37,615 nt of DNA, taken from the NCBI GenBank assembly GCA_017484135.1, contig JAFUTQ010000114.1:1-37615 (forward strand). Reading direction: 5' to 3'. How positions within the stretch are numbered: the first letter of the stretch is position 1; each line of letters begins with the position of its first letter. The DNA is from Lachnospiraceae bacterium (GTDB lineage Bacteria; Bacillota; Clostridia; Lachnospirales; Lachnospiraceae). Shown here one piece after another: positions 1 to 12,704 of the stretch. A program made the translations under genes and the position numbers. The notes beneath the pieces are model-generated. The model saw only the letters and a program-made list of their open reading frames with translations. It did not search any database and had not been told where the DNA came from.

Positions 1-264
1 AGACCAAAGCGAAAGAGGTAATGAACACAATGCTTACGAATATCGTAACCATTGTGAAAGAAACGCCGGAAAAAATCTGGAACTGCATTGTAGGAGCCGT
101 AACAAAAGTAGCCGAGTGGGGCACAAACATGCAGACCAAAGCGAAAGAGGTAATGAACACAATGCTTACGAATATCGTAACCATTGTGAAAGAAACGCCG
201 GAAAAAATCTGGAACTGCATTGTAGGTGCCGTAACCAAAGTAGCTACATGGGGCACAGAGGTAA
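1..264 (+). repeat. 132-bp in-frame tandem repeat in the tape measure gene
   Basis: Two copies with a period of 132 bp (44 codons): the first is cut by the window edge and the second starts near 133. They are almost identical at DNA level up to about position 220 (one difference at 'gtaggagcc' versus 'gtaggtgcc', one at 'aacaaaag' versus 'aaccaaag'), and the end of copy 2 diverges. Near-identity of DNA and not only of protein points to a recent duplication, which would lengthen the tape measure by one unit. More copies may lie to the left. Confidence 0.85.
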
Positions 265-803
265 AGAACAAAGCTGTAGAGGGCATGAAAAGCGTTATAA
301 GTGGTATAACAGATGCCTTTAAGAACATTGGTAGCACTTTCGCTGGTTTTGGTAAGAACATGGTAGAGGGTATCTGGAACGGCATAAGCAATACTACACA
401 GTGGATAAAAGACAAAATAAAAGGCTGGGTAGGGGATGTAACGAGCTTCCTAAAAAATCTCTTTGGAATCGCCAGCCCATCTAAACTTATGCGGGACGAG
501 ATAGGCGTATATCTGGCGCAAGGTATAGGCGTAGGATTTGCAGAGGAAATGGACGGGGTAAACAAGCAGATAGAGGATGCCATACCGAAAGAGTTTGACG
601 TAGGGGCAAAAGTCAACATGAATAAAGAACCCATTGACTTTACCTACGATATAGGCGACGGGAAACCAAAACCCAAGACAAAAGGCGGCGCGGCAGCAGG
701 CGGATTGACTGTCATACAGAATATCTACGCAAATACCACGGATTATGTAAAACAGCAAAAAGAAGCTGCAAGGCAATTCAAAATGATAGCAAGGACGGTG
801 TGA
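3..803 (+). CDS. Phage tail tape measure protein, C-terminal part (start lies left of window)
   Basis: The reading frame is open from the first codon of the window, so the gene begins upstream; the first ATG at 21 is internal, because the residues before it (TKAKEV) belong to a repeat unit. The visible 266 residues start with two nearly identical 44-residue units (MNTMLTNIV..ETPEKIW), then a diverged amphipathic helical stretch, then the segment FGIASPSKLMRDEIG followed by Y.AQGIG.GF, which is typical of the C-terminal end of tape measure proteins. Tape measure proteins set tail length in siphoviruses and sit inside the tail tube. The next gene begins at its stop codon, as expected for the tape measure to distal-tail order. 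The assignment rests on this motif and on gene order. Confidence 0.85.
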   Translation, partial: TKAKEVMNTMLTNIVTIVKETPEKIWNCIVGAVTKVAEWGTNMQTKAKEVMNTMLTNIVTIVKETPEKIWNCIVGAVTKVATWGTEVKNKAVEGMKSVISGITDAFKNIGSTFAGFGKNMVEGIWNGISNTTQWIKDKIKGWVGDVTSFLKNLFGIASPSKLMRDEIGVYLAQGIGVGFAEEMDGVNKQIEDAIPKEFDVGAKVNMNKEPIDFTYDIGDGKPKPKTKGGAAAGGLTVIQNIYANTTDYVKQQKEAARQFKMIARTV

Positions 804-805
804 GC

Positions 806-1693
806 ATGGAAAATGAAAAGCTGACATTTAGAAATTCGCGGGGAGAGAGTCTGGAAATGGGAATAGACAGCGTATATCACTGCAACGTTAGCAAGGATGT
901 GAGTGGCATAGCAGGCGTTACGAATGTGATCTACAGCACAAATAGCATGGGACAGCATGGGGATACATATGTAGGGCAGCGTATTGAGGCAAGGGACGTA
1001 GATATTTTAGGACATATCAATACAAGGGACAAAGCGCAGGCATTACAGCTGCGCCGCCAGATGCTCAAGATACTTAATCCGGAGCTTAGCGCCACACTGA
1101 CTTATGAGTATGGCAGCTTTAAGCGCGTGATAGATTGCAGGATGTTTGACGAGCCCAAAATAGAAAGAAAAAGCGTGTTGTATGAATTTAATCTACAGCT
1201 GGAATGCCTTAATCCGTTCTGGCGAGAAGAGGACGAAACAAAAGAGGACATAGCAAACTGGGTGGCTGCGTGGCATTTTCCCTGCGTGATTGATAAGGAA
1301 AGCACAAAAGGCATGATTTTTGGCTATAGAACAGAAAGCGTAATAGTGGACTGCTACAACGAGGGCGACGTGTCAACGGGTATGCGCATACGATTTACGG
1401 CGCGGGGAACGGTTGAAAATCCTATACTGCTTAACGTAGATACCGGGGAATTTATACAGCTTAATGTCGTCATGCTGACGGGCGATGTAATAGAAGTTAA
1501 TACGAAATATGGCAATAAGGGTGCAAAGCTGACACGGGACGGAATAGAAACGGATTGTTTTCGATTTATTGACGTAGACAGCACATTCATGCAGCTGGCC
1601 ATAGGAGACAACAATTTTAGATATGATGCCGCCAATGGGGTAAACGCTCTTGAGGTGGCAATATTCTATAGCAAGGAATTTTTAGGAGTGTGA
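806..1693 (+). CDS. Distal tail (Dit-like) phage tail protein
   Basis: This 295-residue protein follows directly after the tape measure gene. Its N-terminal half (LTFRNSRGESLEM, then YVGQRIEARDVDILGHI, then LNPELSATLTYEYGSFKR) resembles the N-terminal domain of siphovirus distal tail proteins of the SPP1 gp19.1 type, which form the hexameric hub joining tail tube and baseplate. The later part (LNPFWREEDE, then a beta-rich GTVENPILLN..GEFIQL region) is the usual C-terminal jelly-roll-like domain. I chose ATG 806 because AAGGA at 791-795 is about 10 bases upstream; GTG 800 in the same frame is too close to it. It lies four bases before the next tail gene. The family is clear from motifs and order; the exact name is inferred. 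Confidence 0.8.
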   Translation: MENEKLTFRNSRGESLEMGIDSVYHCNVSKDVSGIAGVTNVIYSTNSMGQHGDTYVGQRIEARDVDILGHINTRDKAQALQLRRQMLKILNPELSATLTYEYGSFKRVIDCRMFDEPKIERKSVLYEFNLQLECLNPFWREEDETKEDIANWVAAWHFPCVIDKESTKGMIFGYRTESVIVDCYNEGDVSTGMRIRFTARGTVENPILLNVDTGEFIQLNVVMLTGDVIEVNTKYGNKGAKLTRDGIETDCFRFIDVDSTFMQLAIGDNNFRYDAANGVNALEVAIFYSKEFLGV

Positions 1694-1696
1694 TGC

Positions 1697-2851
1697 ATGG
1701 AGCTTAGAGTATTTGACAAGACAGTAGAGCCGCTGGGGACAATAGACGAAATGGCAAGCCTGCTATGGCATACGAAATATTTTGACGTGGGTACATTTAG
1801 TTTACTTGCGCCGATTACGGAGAATAACAGCCGCCTGCTGGTAGAGGGTAACATACTTACTAAGCACGATGGAAAGAAGGAAGTACAGACCTCGGACGGC
1901 GGGATATGGCGCAGGGCTGCGCAGATTACCTATGTACATATAACCAAAGACGAAAACGGACTAGAGCAGATAGAGGCGCAGGGCTATATGTTGAGCCGTT
2001 GGCTTAATAAGCGCTGCATCTGTCCGCAGATTGTAGCTATCGCTACAAACCAGAGCCTTATAAACACTATGGTAATAAACAACTGCGGCAGTGAGGCGAG
2101 TGTAAAGCGCTGCTTTCCGCAGTTTGCCATATTAGAGCAGGAAAACATAGCAGGCAACCAAGTGGAGTATGCAAACGAGGTATACGCCCAACTGGGACTT
2201 GAAGTCAAAGCAAGAGCGCAGGCAGGAAAGCTGGGCTATGACATTCTGGTAAATGAAAGAGAGAAGAAATACGGCTTTTATCTGTATAAAGGAAAAGACC
2301 TTACAGCAACAAATAACGACGGTAACACACCCTGCATATTTTCCCGTGATTTTGATAACGTGAATGAGCAGGAATACACCGTCAGTATAGAAAACTGCGG
2401 TAATTTTATTTATGTGCAGGGGGCAGCAGACGACGATGGCAGCCAGCCGGTAGTTACCGTGGACGGAGAGGGCGCGGAAGGTTTAGAACTGGAAGAGGTT
2501 TTTTGTGATGCCACGGACATAGCAAGAAAATACCAGAGCGGAGAAACAGAGATAACAATACCGCTTAATACATATCTGGCTATGCTGCGGACACGGGGCG
2601 GCGCGGAACTGGAAAATTACGGGAAAACTATAAATTTTGTAAGCACCATAAATACAAATTCAAATTTGAAATTTAAGGGCGATTTTGATTTGGGCGATCG
2701 GATTACTTGCAAGGAAGAAAAATGGGGAATACAGATAGACGCAAGGATAACGGAAGTAACAGAAACTTACCAGAAAGGCGAGGAAACCATAGAGGCTACA
2801 TTTGGAGATAGCCTGCCTACGCTGGTAGAACAGATTAGGAAAGTGAGGTAG
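1697..2851 (+). CDS. Siphovirus Gp37-like tail/baseplate protein
   Basis: A 384-residue protein in the third position after the tape measure. The N-terminus (MELRVFDKTVEPLGTID..SLLW) and the sequence (F.VGTFSLLAP.T..N) match the ReqiPepy6 Gp37-like family found after Dit in many Firmicutes phages. Its C-terminal part (DLGDRITC..KWGIQIDARI) is the usual conserved beta segment. By position it corresponds to the tail-associated hub protein that closes the tube and carries the receptor-binding parts. No peptidase or lysozyme motif is visible, so it is probably structural only. Isoleucine is encoded mainly by ATA, as in the surrounding phage genes. It is spaced 4 bp from both neighbours and is probably translated from the same late transcript. 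Confidence 0.72.
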   Translation: MELRVFDKTVEPLGTIDEMASLLWHTKYFDVGTFSLLAPITENNSRLLVEGNILTKHDGKKEVQTSDGGIWRRAAQITYVHITKDENGLEQIEAQGYMLSRWLNKRCICPQIVAIATNQSLINTMVINNCGSEASVKRCFPQFAILEQENIAGNQVEYANEVYAQLGLEVKARAQAGKLGYDILVNEREKKYGFYLYKGKDLTATNNDGNTPCIFSRDFDNVNEQEYTVSIENCGNFIYVQGAADDDGSQPVVTVDGEGAEGLELEEVFCDATDIARKYQSGETEITIPLNTYLAMLRTRGGAELENYGKTINFVSTINTNSNLKFKGDFDLGDRITCKEEKWGIQIDARITEVTETYQKGEETIEATFGDSLPTLVEQIRKVR

Positions 2852-2855
2852 CAAA

Positions 2856-3992
2856 ATGGCAAACAGCTTACCGTTTGATGCTGTGCGAGTAGATAATGAA
2901 TACGACAGAGTCTATAAAGCCGAGGACTGGGCGTGGTACTTCGCGACGTTCATAGCAAATGGCGTTTTTCCAAAGCCGAGCGACGGACTACAAGTAATAG
3001 CTTATAGCGGCATGGAAATAAGGATAAATGCGGGGTATGCATTTATCAACGGATACGCATTCAGAAACCCAGCCACATATAGTTTAACACTGGATACGGC
3101 AGAGGGAGCGCAAAATAGAATAGACAGAGTAGTAGTGCGCTGGGATCTGTCGCTGAGAGATATGTACATTGCGATACTGAAGGGCTCGCCGTCCGCAAAG
3201 CCAGTGCCCACTGCAGTAACAAGGAATACGGAAATATGGGAGCTGGCATTAGCGGATATATATGTAGGCAAGGGTGTTACAAGGATACAAACACAGAATA
3301 TCACGGACCAGCGTTTTAATAGCGCCGTCTGCGGCATAGTGACGGGTACGGTGGAAGAGATAGACGCAAGCGTGCTCACAAAGCAGTTTACAGATTTCTT
3401 TAACAGCTACAGTGCGGCAGTGCTGGACGAGTTTAGCGTATATAAGCAGAAAATAGAAACGTATCTTGCGCAGCTGGCGGGTGTTTACAATGATTATGTT
3501 GCACAGACAGAGGATTTATTTACACAGTACGAAAACAAATTTAATAACCGATACAGCGTTTTTGAAAACACATTAGACGGCTGGGAACGTCAGCTTTTAG
3601 ATGCTTACACCGGATTTGTGGCAAATATTCAGCTTTTCCAGACGGAGGCAGAGAGCGATTTCAATGCATGGTTTGAGGCTATCAAGGGAAAGTTGGGGGA
3701 AGATGCCGCAGGGCAGATACAACTTGAAATTGACGAGATTACAACAGCAGTGCAGGAGCTTACGCGGGCGACAGCAGCAGGCACGGCGGAGACAAAAGCG
3801 GCGCTAGAGGAACTGGACAATAGAGTAAAACGGATAGAAAGTGGCTGGGGTATTGACCTTAAGCATGATGCGGTGCTGGGACTTTGCTACATGGGCGCCG
3901 CCTATATGAGCCAGCATTACGAAAGAACAGAGGAAACGGCAGTAATAGGAGCTACCTATATTGGCAGCTCCTACCTTGCAAATACATATTAG
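2856..3992 (+). CDS. Baseplate/tail-fibre-like structural protein with coiled-coil middle
   Basis: This 378-residue protein has three visible parts. Residues 1-165 resemble the N-terminal attachment domain of phage baseplate upper or fibre proteins (MEIRINAGYAFINGYAF, then NRIDRVVVRWDLSLR). Residues 180-330 are strongly helical with many aromatic residues (VLDEFSVYKQKIETYLAQLA, YVAQTEDLFTQYENKF) and end in a coiled coil (ELTRATAAGTAETKAALEEL). The last 40 residues are a short beta-like tip with related elements YMGAAYMS and YIGSSYLA. It probably trimerises and sits at the tail end, next to the variable protein two genes on. A direct role as anchor for that protein is plausible but not shown by the sequence. 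Confidence 0.65.
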   Translation: MANSLPFDAVRVDNEYDRVYKAEDWAWYFATFIANGVFPKPSDGLQVIAYSGMEIRINAGYAFINGYAFRNPATYSLTLDTAEGAQNRIDRVVVRWDLSLRDMYIAILKGSPSAKPVPTAVTRNTEIWELALADIYVGKGVTRIQTQNITDQRFNSAVCGIVTGTVEEIDASVLTKQFTDFFNSYSAAVLDEFSVYKQKIETYLAQLAGVYNDYVAQTEDLFTQYENKFNNRYSVFENTLDGWERQLLDAYTGFVANIQLFQTEAESDFNAWFEAIKGKLGEDAAGQIQLEIDEITTAVQELTRATAAGTAETKAALEELDNRVKRIESGWGIDLKHDAVLGLCYMGAAYMSQHYERTEETAVIGATYIGSSYLANTY

Positions 3993-4007
3993 GAAAGGTG
4001 GCAGACC

Positions 4008-4445
4008 ATGAAAGGATTTCCAAAAACATTAAAGACAAAAGAGGATTATTACAATTGTCTGGCAATGGTGGCAGCAGGAGAATTGCAGGCGGCTGACTTG
4101 CTGGCAAAAATTGAGAGCGCAGAGGCGCAACGCTATTTGCGGTGCGCGGTAGTGGAAGTGGCAGAGGAAAAGAAAACCGCAACACTTATTTACTGCGATG
4201 AGGCGACAGCAGGCATGAAGTTTGTGGCGGACGGAGTATCCGGGACGGTGCAGGCAGTGGAGCATATGCAGAGTGAAGAGGCGCAGACAGCAGGCGAGGC
4301 AGTAAATGACCGCACGGTACTTACCCTGTCTAAGGCGGTTACGGCTGATTGCTCCACGATTGCTATTGAGACGGCAGAAACCGTGACAGGTATGACAAAA
4401 GACGATATTACAGCACTGAAAGGAGTATTAAAACAGTATGAGTAG
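4008..4445 (+). CDS. Phage protein of unknown function, coupled to the DGR target gene
   Basis: A 145-residue protein that I do not recognise. It begins MKGFPKTLKTKEDYYNCLAM, has a helical first half (LQAADLLAKIESAEAQRYLR), a beta-like middle (TATLIYCDEATAGMKFVADG) and an acidic, threonine-rich C-terminus (TIAIETAETVTGMTKDDI). There is no signal peptide or membrane segment. Its stop codon lies eight bases inside the next gene, so translation of the DGR target protein is probably coupled to it. That layout suggests production in linked amounts, as for a chaperone, adaptor or minor structural partner of the variable receptor-binding protein. This is inference from position only. Confidence 0.7.
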   Translation: MKGFPKTLKTKEDYYNCLAMVAAGELQAADLLAKIESAEAQRYLRCAVVEVAEEKKTATLIYCDEATAGMKFVADGVSGTVQAVEHMQSEEAQTAGEAVNDRTVLTLSKAVTADCSTIAIETAETVTGMTKDDITALKGVLKQYE

Positions 4446-5580
4446 ATTGATGGTAGACGATGTTACAAAGACTGACGCAAGGGCGCTTCTGAACGTCAAC
4501 AAAATGGCTATGATAAGCGATATTGTAGCGCCAAGCAATGAATATCTTTATGCAAGTGGCACAGATGAACTGACTGTAGCGGAAGGGTGTGTAATTGCCG
4601 TTGGTGGCGCGGGCATTTTTAAGACCACAAATACCCTGCTTACGGTGGCTAATTTGGATGTGGGCAGTGCATTTACAGCGGGCAGTGATTATTACATATA
4701 TATTTGTGATAACAGAATAGATGCGGCAGACGAGCAGTATATAATTTCCCTTAATTCCACATATCCTAACGGCTGGAATGCAAGCAACAGCAGAAAGATA
4801 GGTGGATTTCATTACGGCAGATGCCGAATGACAGACAGCAACCTGCAGCCGGTCAACAGAAGCGGCATTATTTTTGGAACTGGTTGGGAAAGTGCAGTAA
4901 GCAACGGTATTGTGCCGCGCTCCGTGTGGACATTAGGACACCGCCCAAAGTGCAGCCCGGAAGGAATGGTATATTTAGGCGGCGACACATGGGTAGATAT
5001 TTATCTTAATTCTGACGACGGCGCAAAAGGCTTAAAATCTGCTTACGGCTGTGCGCCAATGACAGGTACAGAGGGCATGAATTGGTACAATTTTTCAGAG
5101 CGTCTGGCAAAGAGCGGTAAGCGCATGCCTAATTATAGCGAGTTCTGCGCCTATGCGTTTGGCAGCCCGCAGGGATTGGATAACGCCAATACAAATGCGT
5201 GGACGGCGACCACCAACACGGGAAGAGACATCACGGGAAGCGTTATAAATGCTGTATCTGCTGTAGGCTGCGTAGATGCTGTAGGGCGTGTCTGGGAGTG
5301 GCTTAACGATCTTGTAACGAGAGCGGAACACGCCACTAGTGTAACACACCATCCTACAGAAGCGTGGGGCTGGGATGAAGAAACACCACTTAAAACCGGT
5401 GAACAGAATTATGATGTCGGCAACATTTATCAGTATTACGCAAATTCTTTGGCGGCGCTGGGGGCGGGCGGCTACTGGGCCGATGGCGCTAATGCGGGCG
5501 CACGTGCCGTGTATTGCACAGGTTGCCCGTGGAACGTCAGCAGCGGCATTGGCGGGCGTGGGGCGTGTGACTCTATGTAG
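4438..5580 (+). CDS. DGR target: variable receptor-binding protein with C-type-lectin-like fold
   Basis: A 380-residue protein, about the length of the Bordetella phage tropism determinant Mtd. Residues 1-130 look like a virion-attachment domain (the end, RKIGGFHYGRCR, recalls Mtd-like proteins). Residues 155-380 have the formylglycine-enzyme/C-type-lectin layout (GMNWYNFSERLAKSGKRMP, NAVSAVGCVDAVGRVWEWL, ending GARAVYC..CPWN..SGIGGRG). The final 126 coding bases are the variable repeat. Compared with the template, ten residues differ (342, 346, 348, 349, 359, 361, 362, 363, 368, 370), mostly asparagine in the template. These sit on the part of this fold that forms the ligand-binding face in known DGR proteins. 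It most likely binds the bacterial host surface at the tail tip. The gene overlaps the previous stop by eight bases. Confidence 0.9.
   Translation: MSRLMVDDVTKTDARALLNVNKMAMISDIVAPSNEYLYASGTDELTVAEGCVIAVGGAGIFKTTNTLLTVANLDVGSAFTAGSDYYIYICDNRIDAADEQYIISLNSTYPNGWNASNSRKIGGFHYGRCRMTDSNLQPVNRSGIIFGTGWESAVSNGIVPRSVWTLGHRPKCSPEGMVYLGGDTWVDIYLNSDDGAKGLKSAYGCAPMTGTEGMNWYNFSERLAKSGKRMPNYSEFCAYAFGSPQGLDNANTNAWTATTNTGRDITGSVINAVSAVGCVDAVGRVWEWLNDLVTRAEHATSVTHHPTEAWGWDEETPLKTGEQNYDVGNIYQYYANSLAALGAGGYWADGANAGARAVYCTGCPWNVSSGIGGRGACDSM
5447..5572 (+). repeat. Variable repeat (VR) of the diversity-generating retroelement
   Basis: 126 bp at the 3' end of the target gene align without gaps to TR at 6011-6136. 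Sixteen positions differ. Fourteen are template adenines replaced by G (10), T (2) or C (2); the other two are T6026 to G (VR 5462) and C6084 to A (VR 5520). The TR has 27 adenines among 126 bases, so the bias to adenine is very strong. The last 24 bases, rich in G and C, are identical in both copies and correspond to the initiation-of-mutagenic-homing segment; the two sequences separate immediately after GTGACT. Confidence 0.95.
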
Positions 5581-5581
5581 A

Positions 5582-5602
5582 CGGCGGGCGAAAGCCCAGC
5601 CG
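5582..5602 (+). promoter_or_regulatory. GAAA-loop hairpin just downstream of VR (retrohoming target structure)
   Basis: CGGCGGGC, loop GAAA, then GCCC-A-GCCG: an eight-pair stem with one bulged A, starting two bases after the target gene stop codon. In the Bordetella phage DGR a hairpin or cruciform with a GAAA tetraloop a short distance after VR is needed for efficient retrohoming. The same position, stem length and loop here argue for that role. No T-run follows, so it is not a terminator. It is absent after TR, which fits its role of marking VR as the recipient. Confidence 0.8.
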
Positions 5603-5623
5603 ACTACTATAGGGGGGTGTGAA

Positions 5624-5980
5624 ATGACAATCCAGGAAAAAACAGACCAATTACACCAGAAAATATATGATTTTCTGCTATACATATATCCGTTGCTAAG
5701 CAAGTATCCAAAATTTGAAAAATTCAGTCTGCAAACAGCAACCAGAAACGCAATACTGGAAACGCTGCAAGAGGTTATAAAGTGGGACAAGACAGCAACG
5801 AAAAGCCACCTATACGCAGCGGATACGGCGTTACAGCAAAGTAAGGAACTGCTGCGGCTGGCAAATGATTTGAAGTATAGCGCAATGAACGCCCAGCACT
5901 ACGGCACAAGCAGCCGAAAGCTGAAAGAAATAGGCGTTATGCTGGGAGAACTTATAGAAGAGGTGAAAGCAAAGAAATAA
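5624..5980 (+). CDS. avd: DGR accessory variability determinant (Avd-like four-helix protein)
   Basis: A 118-residue, helix-rich, lysine-rich protein between VR and TR. The sequence (IYDFLLYIYPLLSKYPKFEK, then LEEVIKWDKTA-like and LRLANDLKYSAMNAQHYG segments) fits the Avd/23S-intervening-sequence-like four-helix bundle. Avd forms a pentamer that binds the DGR reverse transcriptase and template RNA and is required for mutagenic reverse transcription. The length is close to the usual 110-130 residues. ATG 5624 follows a strong AGGGGGGTG ribosome binding site at 5611-5619. Place, size and helical pattern all agree, and no other candidate accessory gene lies in the cassette. Confidence 0.85.
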   Translation: MTIQEKTDQLHQKIYDFLLYIYPLLSKYPKFEKFSLQTATRNAILETLQEVIKWDKTATKSHLYAADTALQQSKELLRLANDLKYSAMNAQHYGTSSRKLKEIGVMLGELIEEVKAKK

Positions 5981-6010
5981 TAAAATATGGGGCAGCTGCT
6001 TACTACAGCC

Positions 6011-6136
6011 CTTTGGCGGCGCTGATAGCGGGCGGCAACTGGAACAATGGCGCTAATGCGGGCGCACGTGCCGTGAATTGCAACAATTACCCGTGGAACG
6101 TCAACAGCAACATTGGCGGGCGTGGGGCGTGTGACT
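6011..6136 (+). repeat. Template repeat (TR) of the diversity-generating retroelement
   Basis: A non-coding copy of the VR, 30 bp after avd and 173 bp before the reverse transcriptase gene. Read in the VR frame it holds asparagine codons AAC/AAT at most of the changed sites, the usual design because AAY codons give broad amino-acid variety without stop codons when the adenines mutate. It also has ATA and TAC at two changed sites. The flanks (before 6011 and after 6136) do not match the VR flanks apart from chance, so the homology ends are sharp. Confidence 0.95.
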
Positions 6137-6308
6137 TAGTGAGAGCATTATAGGCTTAGCGTATCTACGGAACACTAGCAAGGACTTAAAGAGGAATTTA
6201 GGCAGAGTGCTTAATATTCTATAGTCAGAGCGGCTGTCCCGCCGTAAGGCAAAGAGAAAAAGCAGAGCTGCTGGTTAGTAGCTGCGGCGAAAGGCAGGAG
6301 CTTATATT
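6137..6308 (+). ncRNA. Spacer part of the DGR template RNA
   Basis: 172 bases between TR and the reverse transcriptase hold no plausible gene. In the Bordetella DGR about 140 bases after TR form a structured RNA that binds RT-Avd and primes cDNA synthesis. The stretch here has the same position and similar size, with a possible hairpin near 6262-6284 (GCAGAGCTGCT / AGTAGCTGC) just before the ribosome binding site AGGAG at 6296-6300. The RNA role is inferred from the known system; its 5' end is probably inside or before avd. Confidence 0.6.
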
Positions 6309-7370
6309 TTGAAACGAGTAGGATATATCATAAACCAGAGCGGCGAGAAAATAACACTTGTAGAGGCTATGGCTGATTATGCAAACGTGCAGAAAGCCTA
6401 TAACAAAGCCAGAAAGTGCAAGCGATACCGCAAAGACGTTTTGCTTTTTACCAAAGACAAAGAGAGCAATTTAGAAAAGGTGCGGGACGATATTTTAAAT
6501 CTTTCCTATGAGCCAAGCGAGTACCATTATTTTAAGGTATTTGAGCCGAAAGAGAGGCAGATAATGGCGCTGCCATTCTATGACAGAGTGGTACAGCACG
6601 CCATAAATAACGTGCTAGAGCCTATATTTGATAAACGCTTTATATCCCAGTCTTACGCCTGCCGAAAAGGTAAGGGTATGCACGCTGCATCTGATACGCT
6701 GCAAAATTGGCTTTATGAGTGGCAGAAATTCCACCCAGACGAGCCGCTTTATGTTATCAAGGCAGACATACACCACTATTTTCAGAGTATAGACCACGGA
6801 ATACTTAAGGCTGAAATACGAAAAACAATTAAGGACGCTGGGGTACTGGCACTACTGGATAAAATTATAGACCATAACGGCAATATGCCAGAGGGTATAG
6901 GCATACCAGTAGGAAACCTTACAAGCCAGCTATTCGCTAATATTTATCTGGATAAGCTGGATAAGTACATCAAGCACACGCTGGGCGCAAAGCAGTACAT
7001 AAGGTATGTGGACGACTTTATAATACTAAGTCCAGACAAGGAAGAGCTGCGGCGCTGGCTGGCAGAAATTGAGGTGTTTTTAAGGGAAGAGCTGCGGCTT
7101 GCGCTTAACCCTAAAACTGCAATACTGGCAGCAAAGAACGGCATAGACTTTGTAGGCTATAAGCACAGGGCAACGCACAGAAAGGTAAGACCATACAGCA
7201 TTAAGCGTATCAAGCAGACAATCAAGAAGTGCGAAAGCGGAAAAATAACGAAAGAACAATTACAAAAGAGCATACAGAGCTGGACGGGACACGCAGGACA
7301 CGCCGACAGCTACAACCTACGGAAGAAAATAAAAACACTGGCAAATGCAGCTATACAAAAGGCAGCATAG
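6309..7370 (+). CDS. DGR reverse transcriptase
   Basis: A 353-residue group-II-intron-like reverse transcriptase. Visible motifs in order are VVQHAINNVLEPIFD (around 94-108), the first catalytic aspartate in IKADIHHYFQSID (150-162), GIPVGNLTSQLFANIYLD (198-215) and the catalytic YVDD at 233-236, followed by LNPKT and FVGYKHR. The GNLTSQ form, where most retroelements have QGxxxSP, is a hallmark of DGR enzymes and is linked to error-prone copying of adenines. There is no endonuclease or maturase tail, as expected. The start is TTG at 6309, with AGGAG eight bases upstream; the next candidate would remove conserved sequence. It copies TR RNA into adenine-mutated cDNA that replaces VR. Confidence 0.95.
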   Translation: MKRVGYIINQSGEKITLVEAMADYANVQKAYNKARKCKRYRKDVLLFTKDKESNLEKVRDDILNLSYEPSEYHYFKVFEPKERQIMALPFYDRVVQHAINNVLEPIFDKRFISQSYACRKGKGMHAASDTLQNWLYEWQKFHPDEPLYVIKADIHHYFQSIDHGILKAEIRKTIKDAGVLALLDKIIDHNGNMPEGIGIPVGNLTSQLFANIYLDKLDKYIKHTLGAKQYIRYVDDFIILSPDKEELRRWLAEIEVFLREELRLALNPKTAILAAKNGIDFVGYKHRATHRKVRPYSIKRIKQTIKKCESGKITKEQLQKSIQSWTGHAGHADSYNLRKKIKTLANAAIQKAA

Positions 7371-7394
7371 ACCAGCAGGCGCAGGAGTGAGTAC

Positions 7395-7580
7395 ATGGGT
7401 AACAATTTGCTACAAGTGCTGCATGAGCAGCAGGAAATTATTGAACAGCAAAGCAGGCTTATTGTAGATTTGACAGCCACTCTGGAAAACTGGGAGAGTG
7501 TGGCAGGATACGACGGCGCAGAACTGAAAGAGAGGGCATTAAATTTACAGAAAGCAGAAAGGCAGGAAGTATGGAAATGA
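7395..7580 (+). CDS. Small coiled-coil phage protein
   Basis: A 61-residue protein, glutamine and glutamate rich, with a clear heptad-like pattern (LLQVLHEQQEIIEQQSRLIV then LTATLENW). No membrane segment or known motif is visible. It lies between the DGR and the holin and overlaps the holin start by 10 bases. Small proteins in this position of Firmicutes prophages are often called XkdX- or hemolysin-XhlA-like; the lack of a C-terminal membrane segment argues against XhlA. GAGTG lies upstream of ATG 7395. Function is unknown. Confidence 0.65.
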   Translation: MGNNLLQVLHEQQEIIEQQSRLIVDLTATLENWESVAGYDGAELKERALNLQKAERQEVWK

Positions 7581-8062
7581 AAATCATGGAATTTATTAAC
7601 ATGGCGGCACACAACAAGATTATTGAACTGGTAGCACTTGCGGTTGTATTTGATACCATATTTGGAGTGCTACGGGCAATAAGAGAAAAGAAGTTTAACA
7701 GCTGCGCGGGAATTGATGGAGCTATTCGGAAAGTGGGTATGCTTATATCTTTAGTATTTATGCTGGCTATTGATATGCTGATTAAGGTAAATCTTATTGG
7801 ATTTATCCCAGAGACGGTGCGTAGCCAACTGGGACTTACAAGCGTGGGGGTGGCTGAATTTTTCGCGCTGCTCTATATAGCATATGAGGTAGTGAGCATT
7901 TTTAAGAATATGGCACTTTGCGGGCTACCTGTTAAGAAGGTTTGGGCAGCGGTGCGAACTTTTCTGGGAAAATACACGGATGAACTACCAGATACGGACG
8001 AGTTGGAACAAAGCAGCATCAAGGGTAGCGTAGAGGCAGCAGGGCCGCAAGAAAAAAAATAA
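7571..8062 (+). CDS. Phage holin (toxin secretion/phage lysis holin family)
   Basis: A 163-residue membrane protein. Hydrophobic segments are seen around residues 17-35 (IIELVALAVVFDTIFGVLRA), 53-75 (VGMLISLVFMLAIDMLIKV) and 92-112 (GVAEFFALLYIAYEVVSIF), followed by a polar acidic tail ending in GPQEKK. The short DTIFGVL.A..EKKFNS signature after the first membrane helix is typical of the holin_4 group (phi29-independent, Cph1-like). The holin would open the membrane for the endolysin encoded next. Start is ATG 7571 or in-frame ATG 7577; AGGCAGGAAG just upstream suits either. Confidence 0.85.
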   Translation: MEMKIMEFINMAAHNKIIELVALAVVFDTIFGVLRAIREKKFNSCAGIDGAIRKVGMLISLVFMLAIDMLIKVNLIGFIPETVRSQLGLTSVGVAEFFALLYIAYEVVSIFKNMALCGLPVKKVWAAVRTFLGKYTDELPDTDELEQSSIKGSVEAAGPQEKK

Positions 8063-8082
8063 AATAATAAGTATAAGACATG

Positions 8083-8118
8083 AGCGCTTGCAGAAAAATG
8101 CAGGCGCTTGTTTTATGT
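8083..8118 (+). terminator. Hairpin with T-run between holin and endolysin
   Basis: AGCGCTTGCA at 8083-8092 pairs with TGCAGGCGCT at 8099-8108 (one wobble pair) around loop GAAAAA, and is followed by TGTTTTATG. It lies 30 bases before the endolysin start. It could end some transcripts and lower endolysin relative to holin, or only shape the leader. A complete stop is unlikely because no promoter is obvious after it. Confidence 0.5.
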
Positions 8119-8137
8119 CGAAAGGACGGTAAAAAAT

Positions 8138-8908
8138 ATGAGCAACGAAAAGGTAGTAAACGCAAACACAGAAAAAGTTATTTGGGAGTATCTGGAGGGC
8201 AAGGGATTAAACGCCTACGCTGTGGCTGGTTTAATGGGTAATCTGTACGCGGAAAGCGGGCTTAATTCTTGCAATCTGCAAAACACCTATAATAAGAGCC
8301 TTAATATGACAGATACACAGTATACGGCTGCAGTGGATAATGGCAGCTATAACAATTTTGTAAAGGATAAGGCGGGCTATGGGCTGGCGCAGTGGACTTA
8401 TTACACCAGAAAGCAAGCACTATTAGATTATGCGAAAAAGGCGGGCAAATCTATCGGAAGTGTGGATATACAGCTTGTTTTTTTGTGGGACGAGTTACAA
8501 GCCCATAAATCTGTTATCAACACATTAAAGAATGCAGGGAGTGTGCGGGTCGCCTCGGATGCCGTACTACTGGGATTTGAAAAACCAGCAGACCAGAGCG
8601 AGGCAGTGAGGAAAAAGCGGGCAGAGTATGGCGAGGTGTATTATAAAAAATATGCAAGTACGCAGCGGGCAGAATCACAGGAAAAACCACAGGCAGCAGG
8701 CGTACCATTTAGTGTTAAGGTGGATATAACAAACCTTAGAATAAGAACGGGCGCAGGCACTAATTATGCAGGCACAGGAAAGTATACAGGTAAAGGCATA
8801 TTTACCGTTACGGAAGTAAAGACTGGAAAAGGAAGTACGGCAGGCTGGGGAAAGCTGAAAAGCGGCGCTGGTTGGATAAGCTTGGACTATGCTACGCGTT
8901 TAGCATAG
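8138..8908 (+). CDS. Phage endolysin: tail-lysozyme-type domain plus SH3-like domain
   Basis: A 256-residue protein with two parts. Residues 12-170 match the phage-tail-lysozyme type (VIWEYLEGKGLNAYAVAGLM, GNLYAESGLN, YGLAQWTYYTRKQALL); the glutamate in YAESGL is the likely catalytic residue for cutting peptidoglycan glycan strands. After a short linker, residues 190-256 form a bacterial SH3 domain (DITNLRIRTGAGTNYAGTG, ending GWISLDYATRL), which binds the cell wall. No signal peptide is present, so release depends on the holin. ATG 8138 follows AAGGA at 8122-8126; the open frame extends further up but its earlier TTG lies inside the hairpin. Confidence 0.88.
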   Translation: MSNEKVVNANTEKVIWEYLEGKGLNAYAVAGLMGNLYAESGLNSCNLQNTYNKSLNMTDTQYTAAVDNGSYNNFVKDKAGYGLAQWTYYTRKQALLDYAKKAGKSIGSVDIQLVFLWDELQAHKSVINTLKNAGSVRVASDAVLLGFEKPADQSEAVRKKRAEYGEVYYKKYASTQRAESQEKPQAAGVPFSVKVDITNLRIRTGAGTNYAGTGKYTGKGIFTVTEVKTGKGSTAGWGKLKSGAGWISLDYATRLA

Positions 8909-8913
8909 GGATA

Positions 8914-8957
8914 TTAAAGGGCGGACGGTCTGCGGACGGTCTACCCTTTATTTTTTT
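8914..8957 (+). terminator. Rho-independent terminator after the endolysin
   Basis: Arms TTAAAGGG and CCCTTTATT enclose a GC-rich loop and are followed by seven T. The loop consists of a perfect tandem duplication of the 11-mer GCGGACGGTCT (8921-8931 and 8932-8942). It probably closes the phage late operon, since a new promoter starts directly after it. Confidence 0.8.
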
Positions 8958-8978
8958 GAAAAAATAATAAAACACTTA

Positions 8979-9007
8979 TTTACATATTACAGAATATGTA
9001 ATATAAT
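8979..9007 (+). promoter_or_regulatory. Promoter with palindromic operator for the post-lysis operon
   Basis: TTTACA (8979-8984), 17-base spacer, TATAAT (9002-9007). The spacer holds a perfect inverted repeat, TACATATT at 8981-8988 and AATATGTA at 8993-9000 around ACAG, which is placed to block RNA polymerase when bound. The ribbon-helix-helix protein encoded two genes down is a natural candidate for the repressor. It drives the 46-aa gene, the regulator and probably the channel gene. Confidence 0.75.
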
Positions 9008-9072
9008 AAAGACAGTTAGGGGAGAAACACGAACCCATAACAAATAACTGGGCGGCAGAGAAGGGAGAAAAT

Positions 9073-9213
9073 ATGAACGACGAAATGAACGTAGGCGAAT
9101 TGCTTAAGGAAACAGCCGAGGAGAACCAGACGAGGAAAATACTCGAAATACTTAACGAGTGTAAAGACATCGAAGAGGCAAAAGAAAAAGTAAGAGCCTT
9201 ACTTAAAAAGTAA
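9073..9213 (+). CDS. Small acidic helical protein, first gene of the post-lysis operon
   Basis: 46 residues starting MNDEMNVGELLKETAEE and ending KVRALLKK. ATG 9073 is preceded by GGGAG at 9063-9067. It is the first start codon after a strong promoter, has good codon structure and is all-helical by residue pattern. Function is unknown. By size and place it could be a small anti-repressor or regulator partner. Confidence 0.6.
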   Translation: MNDEMNVGELLKETAEENQTRKILEILNECKDIEEAKEKVRALLKK

Positions 9214-9229
9214 GGCGGGAATACAGAAA

Positions 9230-9255
9230 GGGCGGTGGACTTGCCAAAGCCGCCC
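9230..9255 (+). other. GC-rich hairpin between the 46-aa gene and the RHH gene
   Basis: GGGCGG at 9230-9235 pairs with CCGCCC at 9250-9255, with a further TGG/CCA pairing possible inside. It is followed by A-rich sequence and not by T, so it is more likely a message-stability or translation element than a terminator. Confidence 0.4.
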
Positions 9256-9306
9256 GAACTGTTAAAAAAATTATACATCATGAGGCAAGGGAAAGAAAGA
9301 GGTAAA

Positions 9307-9492
9307 ATGCAGAAAGAAGAATTTAATCAGATCAAATATCAAAATGAGTTTAAGAAAAGGAATTATGATAGATTCGAACTGGTAATGCCAAAAGGACAGA
9401 AAGAAGTAATAAAGCAGAGAGCAAAAGCGGCAGGTCAGAGCTTAAGCGAATATATCAATGCTGCTATTGCAGAGAAAATGGCTAAAGAGTAA
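9307..9492 (+). CDS. Arc/CopG-like ribbon-helix-helix regulator
   Basis: 61 residues. The segment YDRFELVMPKGQKEVIKQRA gives the short beta strand and first helix, and GQSLSEYINAAIAEKMAKE gives the turn and second helix of a ribbon-helix-helix dimer. Such proteins bind palindromic operators, and one lies in the promoter about 300 bp upstream. ATG 9307 follows GAAAGAGGT; the longer open frame from 9235 runs through the hairpin and lacks a ribosome binding site. It may repress its own operon and so control the channel gene that follows 15 bp later. It could also be a toxin-antitoxin-type regulator, but no toxin is recognisable here. Confidence 0.75.
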   Translation: MQKEEFNQIKYQNEFKKRNYDRFELVMPKGQKEVIKQRAKAAGQSLSEYINAAIAEKMAKE

Positions 9493-9507
9493 CGAGGATA
9501 ACACAAA

Positions 9508-10251
9508 ATGAGAAAACGATTATTTAAGATAATAGAACTCTCAGACGGAAACGACAAGTTAAGCGGACTATATGATATTGTTATGATGTGTACAATTGTA
9601 ATTAGCCTTATTCCACTTGCCTTCAAAAAAACAAATTCTTTATTTCTGATAGTGGATTATATAACGACGGGCATTTTTGTTGCTGATTATTTGCTACGCT
9701 TTATAACAGCCGATTATAAACTAGAGGCGGCAGGCAACAATGCAAAATTGAATAATTCCGGGGAGCGGATAAAGTTGTTTTTCATATATCCCTTTACACC
9801 TATGGCGATCATTGACCTTTTGGCCATACTGCCAACATTTAGCATCATAGCATCTGGATTTAAGATATTAAAACTTTTTCGATTGTTGCGCACATTTAGG
9901 GTACTTAAAATATTTAAGATTTTTCGATATTCGAAAAGTATTATTGTTATATCGAATGTAATAAAGAAACAAAAAGAACCGCTTTTAGCGGTATGCGTAC
10001 TGGCGGCTGCATATATTGTTATATGTGCATTGATTATTTTCAATGTTGAGCCAGATACATTTGATAATTTCTTTTCGGCAGTATATTGGGCTACGGTTAG
10101 CCTTACGACTATGGGATACGGGGACATATACCCGGTATCTACTACCGGACGTGTTGTAACAATGCTTTCATCATTTGTAGGGATTGCCATTGTAGCACTA
10201 CCGGCAGGAATTATAACGGCTGGGTACATGGACGAAATCAACAAAGAGTGA
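9508..10251 (+). CDS. Voltage-gated-type potassium channel encoded by the prophage
   Basis: A 247-residue six-helix channel. Helices are visible at about 22-40, 46-66, 90-112, 117-140, 158-180 and 212-238. The fourth has arginine or lysine at almost every third place (FKILKLFRLLRTFRVLKIFK, 118-137), the pattern of a voltage sensor. The pore loop carries the potassium selectivity filter TTMGYGD (200-206). There is no cytoplasmic regulatory domain; the protein ends five residues after the last helix. It would move potassium across the cell membrane in response to voltage. Its place in a phage accessory operon, between an RHH regulator and a transposase, suggests an accessory gene expressed in the lysogen. 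ATG 9508 has GAGGA 11 bases upstream. Confidence 0.88.
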   Translation: MRKRLFKIIELSDGNDKLSGLYDIVMMCTIVISLIPLAFKKTNSLFLIVDYITTGIFVADYLLRFITADYKLEAAGNNAKLNNSGERIKLFFIYPFTPMAIIDLLAILPTFSIIASGFKILKLFRLLRTFRVLKIFKIFRYSKSIIVISNVIKKQKEPLLAVCVLAAAYIVICALIIFNVEPDTFDNFFSAVYWATVSLTTMGYGDIYPVSTTGRVVTMLSSFVGIAIVALPAGIITAGYMDEINKE

Positions 10252-10273
10252 ACAGCAGCAGATCAAGCCGAAC

Positions 10274-10305
10274 GCCGCAGACTTGTAAAAGAGTTTGCGG
10301 CTTTT
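10274..10305 (+). terminator. Terminator-like hairpin after the channel gene
   Basis: GCCGCAGAC at 10274-10282 pairs with GTTTGCGGC at 10293-10301 (one G-U pair) and is followed by TTTT. It separates the channel gene from the transposase gene. Confidence 0.6.
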
Positions 10306-10338
10306 GGTTGCGTATGGGACAAAAGAGAGGTAGGAAAA

Positions 10339-11400
10339 ATGGCAAACAAAAAGGGAAGTCACCAATTGACGAGAGCGGACAGGATAAAAATAGAAGCACT
10401 GCTAAAAGAGGGGTTCAGCAAGCCCCAAATAGCGGCGCATCTTGGAGTACATCGAAGCACTATTTATAACGAATTAAAAAGGGGAGAATATGAGCATCTC
10501 AATGGGGACTGGACAACAGAAATGAGATACAGCCCGGACATAGCGCAGGAAAAGGCAGAGGAAAATTTAAAAGCGAGAGGCACACAACTTAAAATAGCAA
10601 ATGATATTGCGTATGCAAATTATATAGAGGATAAAATAGTAAACGAGGATTACAGCCCGGCAGCAGTACTGGGAGAGCTTAAGGCGCAGGGCAGGGAGGG
10701 GGAATTTAATACTACCGTTTGCGTGGCAACGCTTTACAGTTACATTGATAAGGGCATTTTTCTTAAGTTGACTAATAAGAATTTGCCTGTAAAAAAGAAA
10801 AAGAAACGGAGATACAAAAAAGTACGCAAGCAGCAGGCAAGAGCGGCAGCAGGCGATAGCATAGAAAAGCGACCAAAGGAGATAGACCAGCGGGGAAAGT
10901 TCGGACATTGGGAAATGGATAGCGTGATAGGAAAAAAGGGCGTATCTAAAAATGCGTTGCTGGTACTGACGGAAAGAAAGACACGGGACGAGATTATTTT
11001 TAAACTGCCGAATCATACCGACGAAGCGGTAGTAGCGGCGCTGGATAAATTGGAGCGTAGATATGGCGCGGATATGTTTAGACAGATATTTAAGACAATC
11101 ACAGTAGACAATGGCAGTGAGTTTGCAGACGTGAACGGCTTAGAACGTTCCATACTGAAAGAAGGGGAAAAGAGGACGCATTTATATTACTGCCATCCAT
11201 ATAGCAGCTGGGAGCGTGGCACCAATGAGGTTACAAATAAGATGGTACGTCGTAAAATACCAAAGGGTACAAATTTTGATAATCAGACCGACGAGGAAAT
11301 AGCGGAAATAGAGAGCTGGATAAACAGCTACCCACGCAGAATACACGGCTACCGTTCCGCCGGGGAGCTTTTTACAGAAGAACTGGAAAAGCTGGCTTAA
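10339..11400 (+). CDS. IS30-family DDE transposase
   Basis: A 353-residue protein. Residues 6-48 form the IS30 helix-turn-helix (SHQLTRADRIKIEALLKEGF, IAAHLGVHRSTIYNELKRG). The catalytic core has aspartates at 194 (GHWEMDSVIG) and 257 (TVDNGSEF) and the glutamate of SSWERGTNE, probably 292, followed by NKMVRRKIPKGTNF. Length and motifs are complete, so it should be active. I could not find matching terminal inverted repeats in the 87 bp before or the roughly 200 bp after it, and its ATA-rich codon use resembles the phage genes. It may therefore be a resident phage gene rather than a recent insertion. RBS AGAGAGGTAGG lies before ATG 10339. Confidence 0.9.
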   Translation: MANKKGSHQLTRADRIKIEALLKEGFSKPQIAAHLGVHRSTIYNELKRGEYEHLNGDWTTEMRYSPDIAQEKAEENLKARGTQLKIANDIAYANYIEDKIVNEDYSPAAVLGELKAQGREGEFNTTVCVATLYSYIDKGIFLKLTNKNLPVKKKKKRRYKKVRKQQARAAAGDSIEKRPKEIDQRGKFGHWEMDSVIGKKGVSKNALLVLTERKTRDEIIFKLPNHTDEAVVAALDKLERRYGADMFRQIFKTITVDNGSEFADVNGLERSILKEGEKRTHLYYCHPYSSWERGTNEVTNKMVRRKIPKGTNFDNQTDEEIAEIESWINSYPRRIHGYRSAGELFTEELEKLA

Positions 11401-11647
11401 TATTAAGATGCAGAGAATTTGAGGGCTGGCAGCAGTGGCAGCCTTAAAACTGCGCCGTTTCCACATATGGGCGCTTCACAGGATCGGCACACTTTAGTAT
11501 AGTAAGGGTAACATAACCAGAATATTTCAATATGTATAGTTAAATTCTACAAAAACTATCTGATAATATTGGGGAAAGTGCCGAAACTGAAAAAGTGTCG
11601 AAAAAAAGGTTGAAATTTTTAGACGGATGCGGAAAAAACAAAATATC
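11401..11647 (+). other. Gap holding the likely phage-host transition
   Basis: This gene-free stretch separates ATA-rich phage genes from host genes. It contains a weak hairpin near 11424-11443 (GGCTG/CAGCC) and a near-repeat AAAGTGCCGAAA / AAAGTGTCGAAA around 11575-11606. No tRNA end, integrase or clear attachment core is visible. The left end of the prophage is outside the window, so no att pair could be compared. Confidence 0.35.
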
Positions 11648-11676
11648 TGGACAAAAAAAGCTTGGAATGTTATGAT
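11648..11676 (+). promoter_or_regulatory. Promoter of the coiled-coil anchor gene
   Basis: TGGACA (11648-11653), 17-base spacer, TATGAT (11671-11676), 48 bases before the GTG start. Spacing is ideal and both hexamers differ by one base from consensus. Confidence 0.65.
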
Positions 11677-11724
11677 AAAAAAGATTGTACTGTGTAAAGC
11701 AATTGCAAATGGGAGGAGACGGTT

Positions 11725-12534
11725 GTGAATCGTACAATGGATCGAATCAGACATGGTTTGGACAAGCGGTATTCATACAGTCAGCCGCAGCAGAATAAAA
11801 ACATAAAGAAACAGAGCACGGCACGGAAGGAACAGCCGGATTTACCGATAAAACCCAAGGAAGAACCAAAGGTTCAGCAGGAGCCGGAAGAGCATGTAAT
11901 TGTACAGAAAGAGACGGCTGTCGCAACGGAAGGGATGGCGAGAAAAATGGAACAGGATGACTTCCTGCTCAGACAGGTGGATGAATTCCGCGAAAAGGCA
12001 AAGCAGCTGCAGGAATTGTTAAACAGCAGAGAAAGTAAGGCAGAAGAGCTTCAAAGTATCGTAGATGAGCGGGAAGAAAGAGCACAGGCTCTGCAGCAGG
12101 AGCTGGAGCAGCGGCAGTCAGAGGCCAATCAGCTTTTGAGCGGTGTACACTCCCAGATGGACGAGATGATTGAGCGTGTGGAAGAAAAGTTAAACTCCCT
12201 TTCCAATCAGATTGTCAATGATGTGAATGACGCCGGACAGCGCACTGCACAGCAAAATGTCGGAGTTAAGCAATCCCTTACAGATATTTTTGCTCAGCTT
12301 GACACTATGAAGGTCGAGCTTTCCGAGAAGATTCATGCTGAGGATGTGAAATGCTACCGGAATATGAAGGATCTGATCGAGGAGCTGGAGGTAAAGGTAC
12401 AAGACCACGAAAAGCTGGAGCAGGGACTTGCCAATGTAAAGGGCTATGTCAAGTGTCTGGCATGGTTTTCGATTGTAGAATTTGTAGTATTAGTATTTTT
12501 TATTTTGTATACGATGGGAGCATTTAATTTTTAG
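11725..12534 (+). CDS. Coiled-coil protein with C-terminal membrane anchor
   Basis: A 269-residue protein. Residues 1-70 are polar and rich in lysine, glutamine and proline (probably disordered); residues 75-235 are a long coiled coil (EFREKAKQLQELL, EREERAQALQQELEQRQSEA, and later EELEVKVQDHEKLE). A single hydrophobic helix near the C-terminus (about 244-264, FSIVEFVVLVFFILYTMGAF) should anchor it in the membrane with the coiled coil in the cytoplasm. GTG 11725 has GGGAGGA seven bases upstream. I do not recognise a family. It is the first gene on the host side of the prophage and is separated from the next gene by an inverted-repeat element. Confidence 0.7.
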   Translation: MNRTMDRIRHGLDKRYSYSQPQQNKNIKKQSTARKEQPDLPIKPKEEPKVQQEPEEHVIVQKETAVATEGMARKMEQDDFLLRQVDEFREKAKQLQELLNSRESKAEELQSIVDEREERAQALQQELEQRQSEANQLLSGVHSQMDEMIERVEEKLNSLSNQIVNDVNDAGQRTAQQNVGVKQSLTDIFAQLDTMKVELSEKIHAEDVKCYRNMKDLIEELEVKVQDHEKLEQGLANVKGYVKCLAWFSIVEFVVLVFFILYTMGAFNF

Positions 12535-12544
12535 TTTTAAGATT

Positions 12545-12666
12545 CAGTATGATCTGAGCGTCGGCATGATTGGAGGGACAAATGGTTTCTCGTGCAAAAG
12601 TATTCACATTGTTTTGTGATGTGAACCGTTTGATCCTTTCATCATGCCGACGCTCAAATCATATTG
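12545..12666. repeat. 122-bp MITE-like element, copy 1 of a dispersed palindromic repeat
   Basis: The ends (12545-12570 and 12641-12666) are 26-base inverted repeats with only two differences and share TGAGCGTCGGCATGAT. Inside is a smaller hairpin (TTCACAT.../...ATGTGAA) and the motif CGTGCAAAAG. On the minus strand the middle (GGTTCACATC..ATGTGAA..TTGCAC) matches the copy at 15989-16094. The element fills the space between two host genes. Confidence 0.75.
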
Positions 12667-12704
12667 AGAGCCAAATAATATAAGAAAGCTAAATGAGGAA
12701 AAAA

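Follow-up and report, generated by a model that had tools for sequence, protein, structure and literature searches.

A BPP-1/Mtd-type diversity-generating retroelement in a Lachnospiraceae prophage that has its own IS30-type transposase

The window analysed here, a stretch of 37,615 nucleotides, comprises bases 1-37615 of contig 12 in the draft assembly of a Lachnospiraceae bacterium (2.55 Mb in 116 contigs, 83% complete). In its prophage part, at 4438-7370 and all on one strand, lie the components of a diversity-generating retroelement (DGR), in the order target gene with a variable repeat (VR) at its 3' end, inverted repeat with a GAAA loop, avd, template repeat (TR), spacer, and reverse transcriptase (RT) gene. 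A complete DGR with its parts in this order had been proposed from the letters and open reading frames (ORFs) of the window, in what we call the sequence-only reading, and profile searches together with searches against solved sequences bear the proposal out. The features of the cassette are these:

4438-5580, + strand: target gene, encoding an Mtd-type phage tail tip protein of 380 amino acids (Pfam mtd_2nd PF21916, E 7e-42; phrog_11262 tail protein, E 4e-94; solved sequences of Mtd, best E 3.7e-22)
5447-5572, + strand: VR (ungapped alignment with the TR; compared with the VRs of loci having the same TR, differences lie mostly at TR adenines)
5577-5607, + strand: GC-rich inverted repeat following the VR, with a GAAA loop at 5590-5593 (kept in 35 of 35 rows of the alignment described below)
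5624-5980, + strand: avd, 118 amino acids (NCBIfam NF033474 DivGenRetAVD, 91.5 bits against a cut-off of 80; PF22296 bAvd, E 1.8e-20)
6011-6136, + strand: TR (ungapped alignment with the VR; 124 nucleotides identical in relatives L004, L006, L021, L063, L064 and L074)
6132-6139, + strand: predicted helix 1, strand made of the TR 3' end and the start of the spacer (RNAalifold pairing with 6219-6227; paired in 100% of cells; two pairs changed on both sides)
6137-6308, + strand: predicted structured spacer RNA between TR and RT (26 pairs, 99.4% of cells paired)
6219-6227, + strand: predicted helix 1, spacer strand, holding A6227 in the motif GTCAG
6309-7370, + strand: DGR reverse transcriptase, 353 amino acids, TTG start (best PDB match 8ub7_A, E 8.8e-52; phrog_1423, E 2e-137; motifs VGNLTSQ and YVDD intact)

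VR and TR align over 126 nucleotides without a gap and differ at 16 positions, 14 of them at adenines of the TR, which has 27 adenines in all (hypergeometric P=1.4e-9). Outside the adenines there are two changes, a T to G (5462) and a C to A (5520). When both repeats are translated, ten residues differ within the repeat. These recomputed figures reproduce what the sequence-only reading had given, both for the adenine-sited differences of the ungapped alignment and for the ten altered residues of the target. The cassette shows features by which a DGR is recognised: near-identical repeats with differences sited at template adenines, and a VR at the 3' end of the target gene. With the TR as query, the host assembly gave matches only to the TR and VR of the window, with no third copy and no further target.

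Motifs of the form [ILV]GxxxSQ are a mark of DGR reverse transcriptases, and the RT encoded here has VGNLTSQ. Among its solved relatives, 8ub7 chain A (E 8.8e-52) ranks above the group II intron RTs (E 1.6e-21 and weaker); that chain is the RT of Bordetella phage BPP-1, since the RT of the BPP-1 record matches its full 328 residues at E 4.5e-230. The ratio of nonsynonymous to synonymous divergence (dN/dS) is 0.09-0.12 against nine relatives and 0.34 against the most distant, L013, with synonymous divergence (dS) near or above saturation in the distant comparisons; judged by these ratios, the RT evolves under purifying selection. The avd gene was read from its ATG at 5624, within an enclosing mechanical ORF that spans 5375-5980. 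A second RT, of 27% identity, is encoded elsewhere in the host genome, at G000:C68.

By its matches the target is a homologue of Mtd of phage BPP-1: the solved sequences that it hits up to E=1 number six when counted as distinct, and every one is an Mtd (best E 3.7e-22). Homology to BPP-1 Mtd in turn suggests that variation in the VR alters binding to a host receptor. Compared with close relatives, the body of the gene upstream of the VR, 4438-5446, has a dS of 1.3-1.6, far above that of the RT (about 0.34). Given that the TR is identical in several of those close relatives, this part of the target gene seems to have been swapped.

Relatives were gathered through the RT, on 35 viral contigs and 21 genome contigs, 56 in all (numbered L, their genomes G), and 39 of these have an RT whose best segment reaches at least 67% identity. 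Of the 39, 34 gave both repeats in full; the VR is cut in L014 and L017, and L019, L066 and L076 are too short. Together with the window this gives 35 rows and 32 distinct VR/TR pairs, L020, L073 and L075 being duplicates of others. L005, which has an extra base in a run of G near the TR end, was compared over 117 nucleotides. For a pooled count we left out L022, with its mosaic repeats, and took as the core of each repeat the positions beyond the first six. In the resulting 31 pairs, 378 of 388 core differences fall at TR adenines, made up of 229 changes of A to G, 88 of A to T and 61 of A to C. Inclusion of the first six positions makes the count 379 of 397, and inclusion of L022 as well makes it 389 of 417. 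In the two loci with a cut VR the corresponding counts are 13 of 14 (L014) and 4 of 4 (L017).

A search of related genomes for the same TR accompanied by different VRs, suggested as a check in the sequence-only reading, gave a clear result: seven loci (the window, L004, L006, L021, L063, L064 and L074) have one 124-nucleotide TR and seven VRs. L007 and L008 differ at only 4 of 972 bases upstream of the VR, yet at 15 positions within it, every one a TR adenine. Similarly, L005 and L064 differ at 9 of 1000 bases upstream, yet at 18 VR positions, again all TR adenines. Read from such sequence comparisons, the VR has been rewritten repeatedly among these relatives, and specifically at adenines.

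The T to G change of the window, in TR codon ATA (VR 5462, TR 6026), recurs in L006, L009, L062, L065 and L074. It is found in 6 of the 24 distinct pairs with ATA at that place (TR position 16), always with A to G just before it, and may represent either a rewriting hotspot or an inherited 5' edge. In L079 the TR (5701-5826) contains no more than 17 adenines and departs from its VR at four positions, as though a mutated VR had been written over it. VR and TR of L022 (2877-3000 and 3442-3565) differ at 20 positions, 10 of them adenines; the two repeats seem to be of separate ancestry, which points to recombination inside the cassette.

The loop of the inverted repeat that follows the VR is GAAA in 34 of the 35 rows and GGAA in L079. 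The stem in the window has one bulged A and an A/A mismatch. In L013, L015, L016 and L018, which form one lineage, GGGC/GCCC in the stem is replaced by GCGC/GCGC, with both sides changed. A hairpin or cruciform with a GRNA loop downstream of the VR is a feature of DGRs, needed for target recognition in BPP-1 (PMC3240598, accessible text).

A fold for the spacer was derived with RNAalifold from 20 of the 35 rows (18 distinct) and set against 500 shuffles. The spacer has 26 pairs, with 99.4% of cells paired and a two-sided change in 7 pairs. None of the shuffles was as high in cells paired, in two-sided changes or in covariation score; in further pair types the spacer was lower than nearly all of them (499 of 500 at least as high). 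Because the shuffle keeps relatedness and the structure was derived from the same sequences, these statistics support the structure rather than prove it. RNAalifold also paired columns 2-3 with columns 142-143; after one gap was shifted by hand, a local GCC/GGC hairpin was judged likelier, and neither enters the formal count.

The predicted helix 1 sets A6227 opposite T6132, adjacent to template base G6131. From this geometry we predict that A6227 is the adenine that primes complementary DNA (cDNA) synthesis and that G6131 is the first base of the template. In the BPP-1 spacer GTCAG occupies positions 53-57, and its A56 is what we take to be the cDNA primer. The motif is present too in YPCBV-1 and L038, following a TR that ends in CTGTGAC or GTGTGAC. 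Priming of cDNA synthesis by an internal spacer adenine is described for IMH* (IMH, initiation of mutagenic homing) in the accessible part of PMC12875486.

We consider it very nearly certain that a complete DGR of the BPP-1/Mtd type lies here in the right arm of a temperate Lachnospiraceae siphophage, working in the way that BPP-1 suggests. An RNA of TR and spacer would be transcribed between avd and the RT gene, and its spacer would fold to bring GTCA, whose last base is A6227, into pairing with TGAC at the TR 3' end. A complex of RT and Avd would extend from A6227, copying the TR from G6131 upstream and misreading adenines, and the mutated cDNA would then replace the VR at the conserved 3' stretch (the IMH) beside the GAAA hairpin. 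On the tail tip protein, about ten residues of the C-terminal lectin face would change. The priming chemistry, the roles of hairpin and Avd, the lectin fold and the binding of a host receptor by the varied protein are all modelled on BPP-1 in this proposal.

Around the cassette lie other genes of the phage:

800-1693, + strand: Dit, siphophage tail gene (profile searches, Pfam and PHROG)
1697-2851, + strand: Gp37-like siphophage tail gene (profile searches, Pfam and PHROG)
2856-3992, + strand: virion protein gene (profile searches, Pfam and PHROG)
7571-8062, + strand: holin (Pfam PF05105 and PF18013, matches given jointly for holin and endolysin)
8108-8908, + strand: endolysin (the same joint Pfam matches; phrog_20388 endolysin)

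The tail and virion genes are upstream of the DGR, and holin and endolysin are downstream. Encoding of the target in the tail module, as previously claimed, finds support in the Dit, Gp37-like and virion genes upstream and in the PHROG tail family to which the target belongs. The contig begins inside the tail tape-measure gene, so that the head half of the phage falls outside the window; this gene, which has no Pfam match, was named for its position before Dit, and bases 1-320 at the contig start are a tandemly repeated part of it. No known Rfam RNA reached the gathering score within 1-13000. Between host genes farther right, 12544-12587 and 12624-12667 form a 44-nucleotide inverted repeat pair (82%), a similar piece of which occurs on contig 62 of the same genome.

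A number of observations weigh against the proposed retroelement or against particular steps of its working. Avd matches solved Avd sequences weakly (E 0.0063 and 0.04), though it passes the NCBIfam cut-off. Ten of the 388 core differences lie off adenines, six of them being the same T to G, and for the strain of the window itself the apparent rewriting is seen in its single VR alone. An AlphaFold model of the target, built on an alignment of 26 sequences, failed (predicted local distance difference test, pLDDT, 31.8) and was discarded, so the putative lectin fold rests on sequence homology. As for the priming site, GTCAG stands at other places in the spacers of VP58.5, BalMu-1 and L040, and is absent from ARM81mr and from Faecalibacterium phage FP_Lagaffe (and from L039, where no TR was found); in BPP-1 GTCA and the TR bases facing it are complementary only in part. 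A spacer covariance model, applied to 12 sources (the window, BPP-1, YPCBV-1, four other phage DGRs, L038-L040, L080 and L082), gave no match to BPP-1. Besides the spacer of the window itself, the model matched L038 (E 1e-4), a spot in Lagaffe outside the DGR spacer (E 0.009), the VR end of the window (E 0.012) and a chance spot (E 1.8).

Three other accounts of the locus deserve comparison with an active, receptor-directed DGR. The element may once have been active and now be a silent relic, its VR frozen in a prophage that is cut or defective, and we regard this as unlikely. The left half of the phage was found in the draft neither by exact search for the predicted left junction nor with a 2-kb query of left-end DNA from a relative, an empty answer that tells little for a genome 83% complete; the contig does start inside the tape-measure gene, but a break at tandem repeats is an ordinary assembly effect. 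The unequal dS of target body and RT implies that parts have recombined, which would suit a relic, whereas RT, Avd, TR and hairpin, along with the tail, holin, endolysin and transposase genes, all stand open, and the RT family is under purifying selection. We give practically no credence to the notion that VR and TR reflect chance, or ordinary duplication and drift, beside the RT of a retron or group II intron. A chance repeat is ruled out by the adenine bias (P=1.4e-9 in the window, 378 of 388 in the pool) and by the seven VRs of the loci with the same TR. The best NCBIfam name for the RT is indeed group II intron RT/maturase, at 148 bits against a cut-off of 300, but the adenine bias, Avd, a DGR RT as best solved relative and the repeated rewriting all speak for a DGR.

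The third account accepts the DGR and differs over its use: the hypervariable protein might serve a purpose other than choice of host receptor, such as binding mucus or other surfaces. In other gut phages the DGR targets include Hoc-like capsid proteins, of a kind that binds mucus in T4 (PMC5883640, from the text available). Here the target is homologous to Mtd and its gene follows the Dit and Gp37-like tail genes, and a note in the BPP-1 record states that Mtd mediates attachment of BPP-1 to the bacterial surface; a non-receptor use seems improbable to us, and a DGR that varies the receptor-binding protein remains the reading that we prefer.

The right part of the prophage and the host DNA next to it hold three further features:

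10339-11400, + strand: IS30-family transposase of the phage, probably its integrase (NF033563, E 1.1e-71; in the same place in 15 of 20 relatives compared by BLAST)
11596-11621, + strand: right terminal inverted repeat, with the phage end at 11621 (homology to relatives stops)
11648-11676, + strand: host promoter-like site TGGACA-17-TATGAT, before the gene at 11725 (-35 box starts 26 bp after the phage end)

The whole block 10274-11621, which follows the endolysin, occupies the same place in those 15 of 20 relatives, and this rules out an ordinary insertion sequence (IS) beside the prophage; the transposase is the phage's own, and probably acts as its integrase. Three of the five exceptions (L004, L006 and L026) end before the place in question, and the other two, L011 and L073, which are the same prophage, are without the block. 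Searched for the transposase, the genomes of 11 relatives gave best matches of 73-92% identity in 10 cases; the exception, at 34%, was G104, the genome of L073. Homology breaks off abruptly at 11621, and past that point each relative has different host DNA. Left ends were sought in ten stretches, of which eight begin GATAAGTTTTA and one, L102, begins GCTAAGTTTTA, with none found in L100. The phage ends form imperfect inverted repeats, with 13-20 of 26 positions matching in six prophages.

Seven prophages had both ends located by fixed motifs, and their flanking repeats are exactly 15 bp in six (L062, L065, L067, L068, L070 and L074), each different, and 7 in L079. L122 and L102, from one genome, also have 15 bp repeated; counting the first base of the GCTAAG end would make it 16. 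Junctions of right end to left end occur on three viral contigs, one being the contig of L005, and each has a 2-bp spacer (0-18 allowed). IS30-family elements have imperfect terminal inverted repeats, join their ends with a 2-bp spacer, and duplicate 2-3 bp of target. The transposase, inverted repeats and junction spacer of the phages fit that description; the duplication, at 15 bp, does not. It is known from relatives rather than from the window itself, because the left junction and left-end DNA were not found in the host genome. In an empty-site comparison within the genus, the flank was too diverged to reveal a single copy of the 15 bp.

Besides the transposase, a short and weak match to its N-terminal helix-turn-helix (HTH) turned up in ten of the 11 relatives' genomes (E 1e-3 to 2e-6; two with internal stops). 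In L098 this match is a 66-residue ORF (4549-4725) about 170 bp inside the left end, and in Lagaffe such an HTH gene adjoins the IS30 integrase; the left-end position was checked in these two phages only. In phage Mu, repressor and transposase bind the same sites, and the small HTH gene looks as if it were, by analogy, a Mu-like regulator sharing the DNA-binding domain of the transposase.

Right flanks were scored for TTGACA-16..18-TATAAT over 70 offsets. Host flank follows 11 of the 14 right ends, L005 being a circle junction and L016 and L063 stopping at a contig end. The best site lies 25-27 nucleotides from the phage end in 8 of these 11, the flanks on which the offset was chosen; the exceptions are L067 at 29, L070 at 28, and L079 at 6 with a slightly weaker site at 26. 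At offset 26 the mean score is 8.6 of 12 over 16 flanks, as against 4.5 in shuffled flanks. Twenty new loci were then obtained as relatives of the transposase, and in all six that could be counted (L106, L107, L109, L114, L121 and L122) the best site is at 25 or 26. L108 was dropped as a copy of L067 and L111 for a doubtful AT-rich end motif (best score 8 at 25-26); in the other 12 no end was recognised by the fixed pattern, and they were not counted. By eye, L110, L115, L116 and L119 among these look alike; others, such as L117, L118 and L120, do not. Of seven left flanks, read outward, one has its best site at 26, and in another 27 is among six tied offsets. The flanks of L068, L070 and L072 may be coding; their best scores, 8, are the lowest seen, shared with L065. 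In L115 (genome G042), where the RT is 51% identical and the transposase lies about 4 kb downstream, the phage appears by eye to stand just before what we take to be the promoter of a ribosomal RNA operon, the 16S start having been recognised.

The right-end sites are, as sequences, promoter-like rather than mapped promoters, and they suggest that the phage inserts just upstream of host promoters by means of its transposase. We think it likely that the phage family with this DGR employs the IS30-type transposase as integrase, inserts in a single orientation that places the right end 26 bp before a sigmaA -35 box, and duplicates 15 bp; with a self-mutating receptor protein in addition, it would be a temperate phage tied to no fixed receptor and to no fixed attachment site. 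Searches limited to open-licence literature, together with the accessible portions of PMC5883640, PMC13432834 and PMC3942029, brought up no report of promoter-targeted insertion by a phage of IS30 type; subscription papers lie outside that scope.

The DGR itself belongs to a class already known, as the sequence-only reading had said, and falls in the BPP-1/Mtd kind. It shares with the BPP-1 DGR (mtd-VR-hairpin-avd-TR-spacer-brt) the order of genes, an Mtd homologue of equal length, the GAAA hairpin, Avd, adenine mutagenesis and GTCAG in the spacer. The BPP-1 spacer is 144 nucleotides long against 172 here, the targets are about 26-28% identical, and the phage of the window differs from BPP-1 in its siphophage tail genes, its Lachnospiraceae host and its IS30-type transposase. 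The earlier description of the target as C-type-lectin-like is right as far as it goes, but PF21916 and the solved Mtd matches identify it more exactly as an Mtd homologue. In FP_Lagaffe, too, genes for an Mtd-like target, Avd and RT are followed by lysis genes and these by an IS30-type transposase; this phage had already shown an Mtd-like DGR in a Clostridia phage (PMC5883640, accessible text). Its transposase is 54.8% identical to that of the window and its RT 38%; it differs in the reversed order of holin and endolysin, and in a TR 3' end and spacer without GTCAG. The same accessible text classes FP_Lagaffe as a myovirus and notes flanking direct repeats, with no promoter targeting in that portion. 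Viral DGRs with tail targets are a known class in phages of gut Firmicutes (PMC8144416, in part).

Precedents are known for the integration as well, namely the IS30-type integrase of Lagaffe and the promoter targeting of TnGBS, which inserts 15-17 bp upstream of sigmaA promoters through a Mutator-type transposase (PMC3942029, from the portion available). TnGBS and p-MULT are conjugative elements or IS with Mutator-type transposases and insert 15-17 bp upstream of the -35 box according to that portion, whereas here the transposase is of IS30 type, the element is a phage, and the distance is about 26 bp. The integration result is more novel than the DGR, and the phage is worth describing, as had been suggested, more for its mode of integration than for its DGR.

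The 31 distinct TR/VR pairs constitute close natural replicates of a BPP-1-type DGR; named strains, among them Acetatifactor muris DSM 23669, are the source of some, and the candidate priming base and RNA helix would make the BPP-1 mechanism testable in a Gram-positive system. If the insertion rule is true, it would be a case of promoter-targeted integration by a phage with an IS30-type transposase. Freedom from a fixed receptor and attachment site could then explain the presence of the family in several Lachnospiraceae genera, and the rule would bear on how prophages spare the genes of their hosts and on how one phage family settles in many species.

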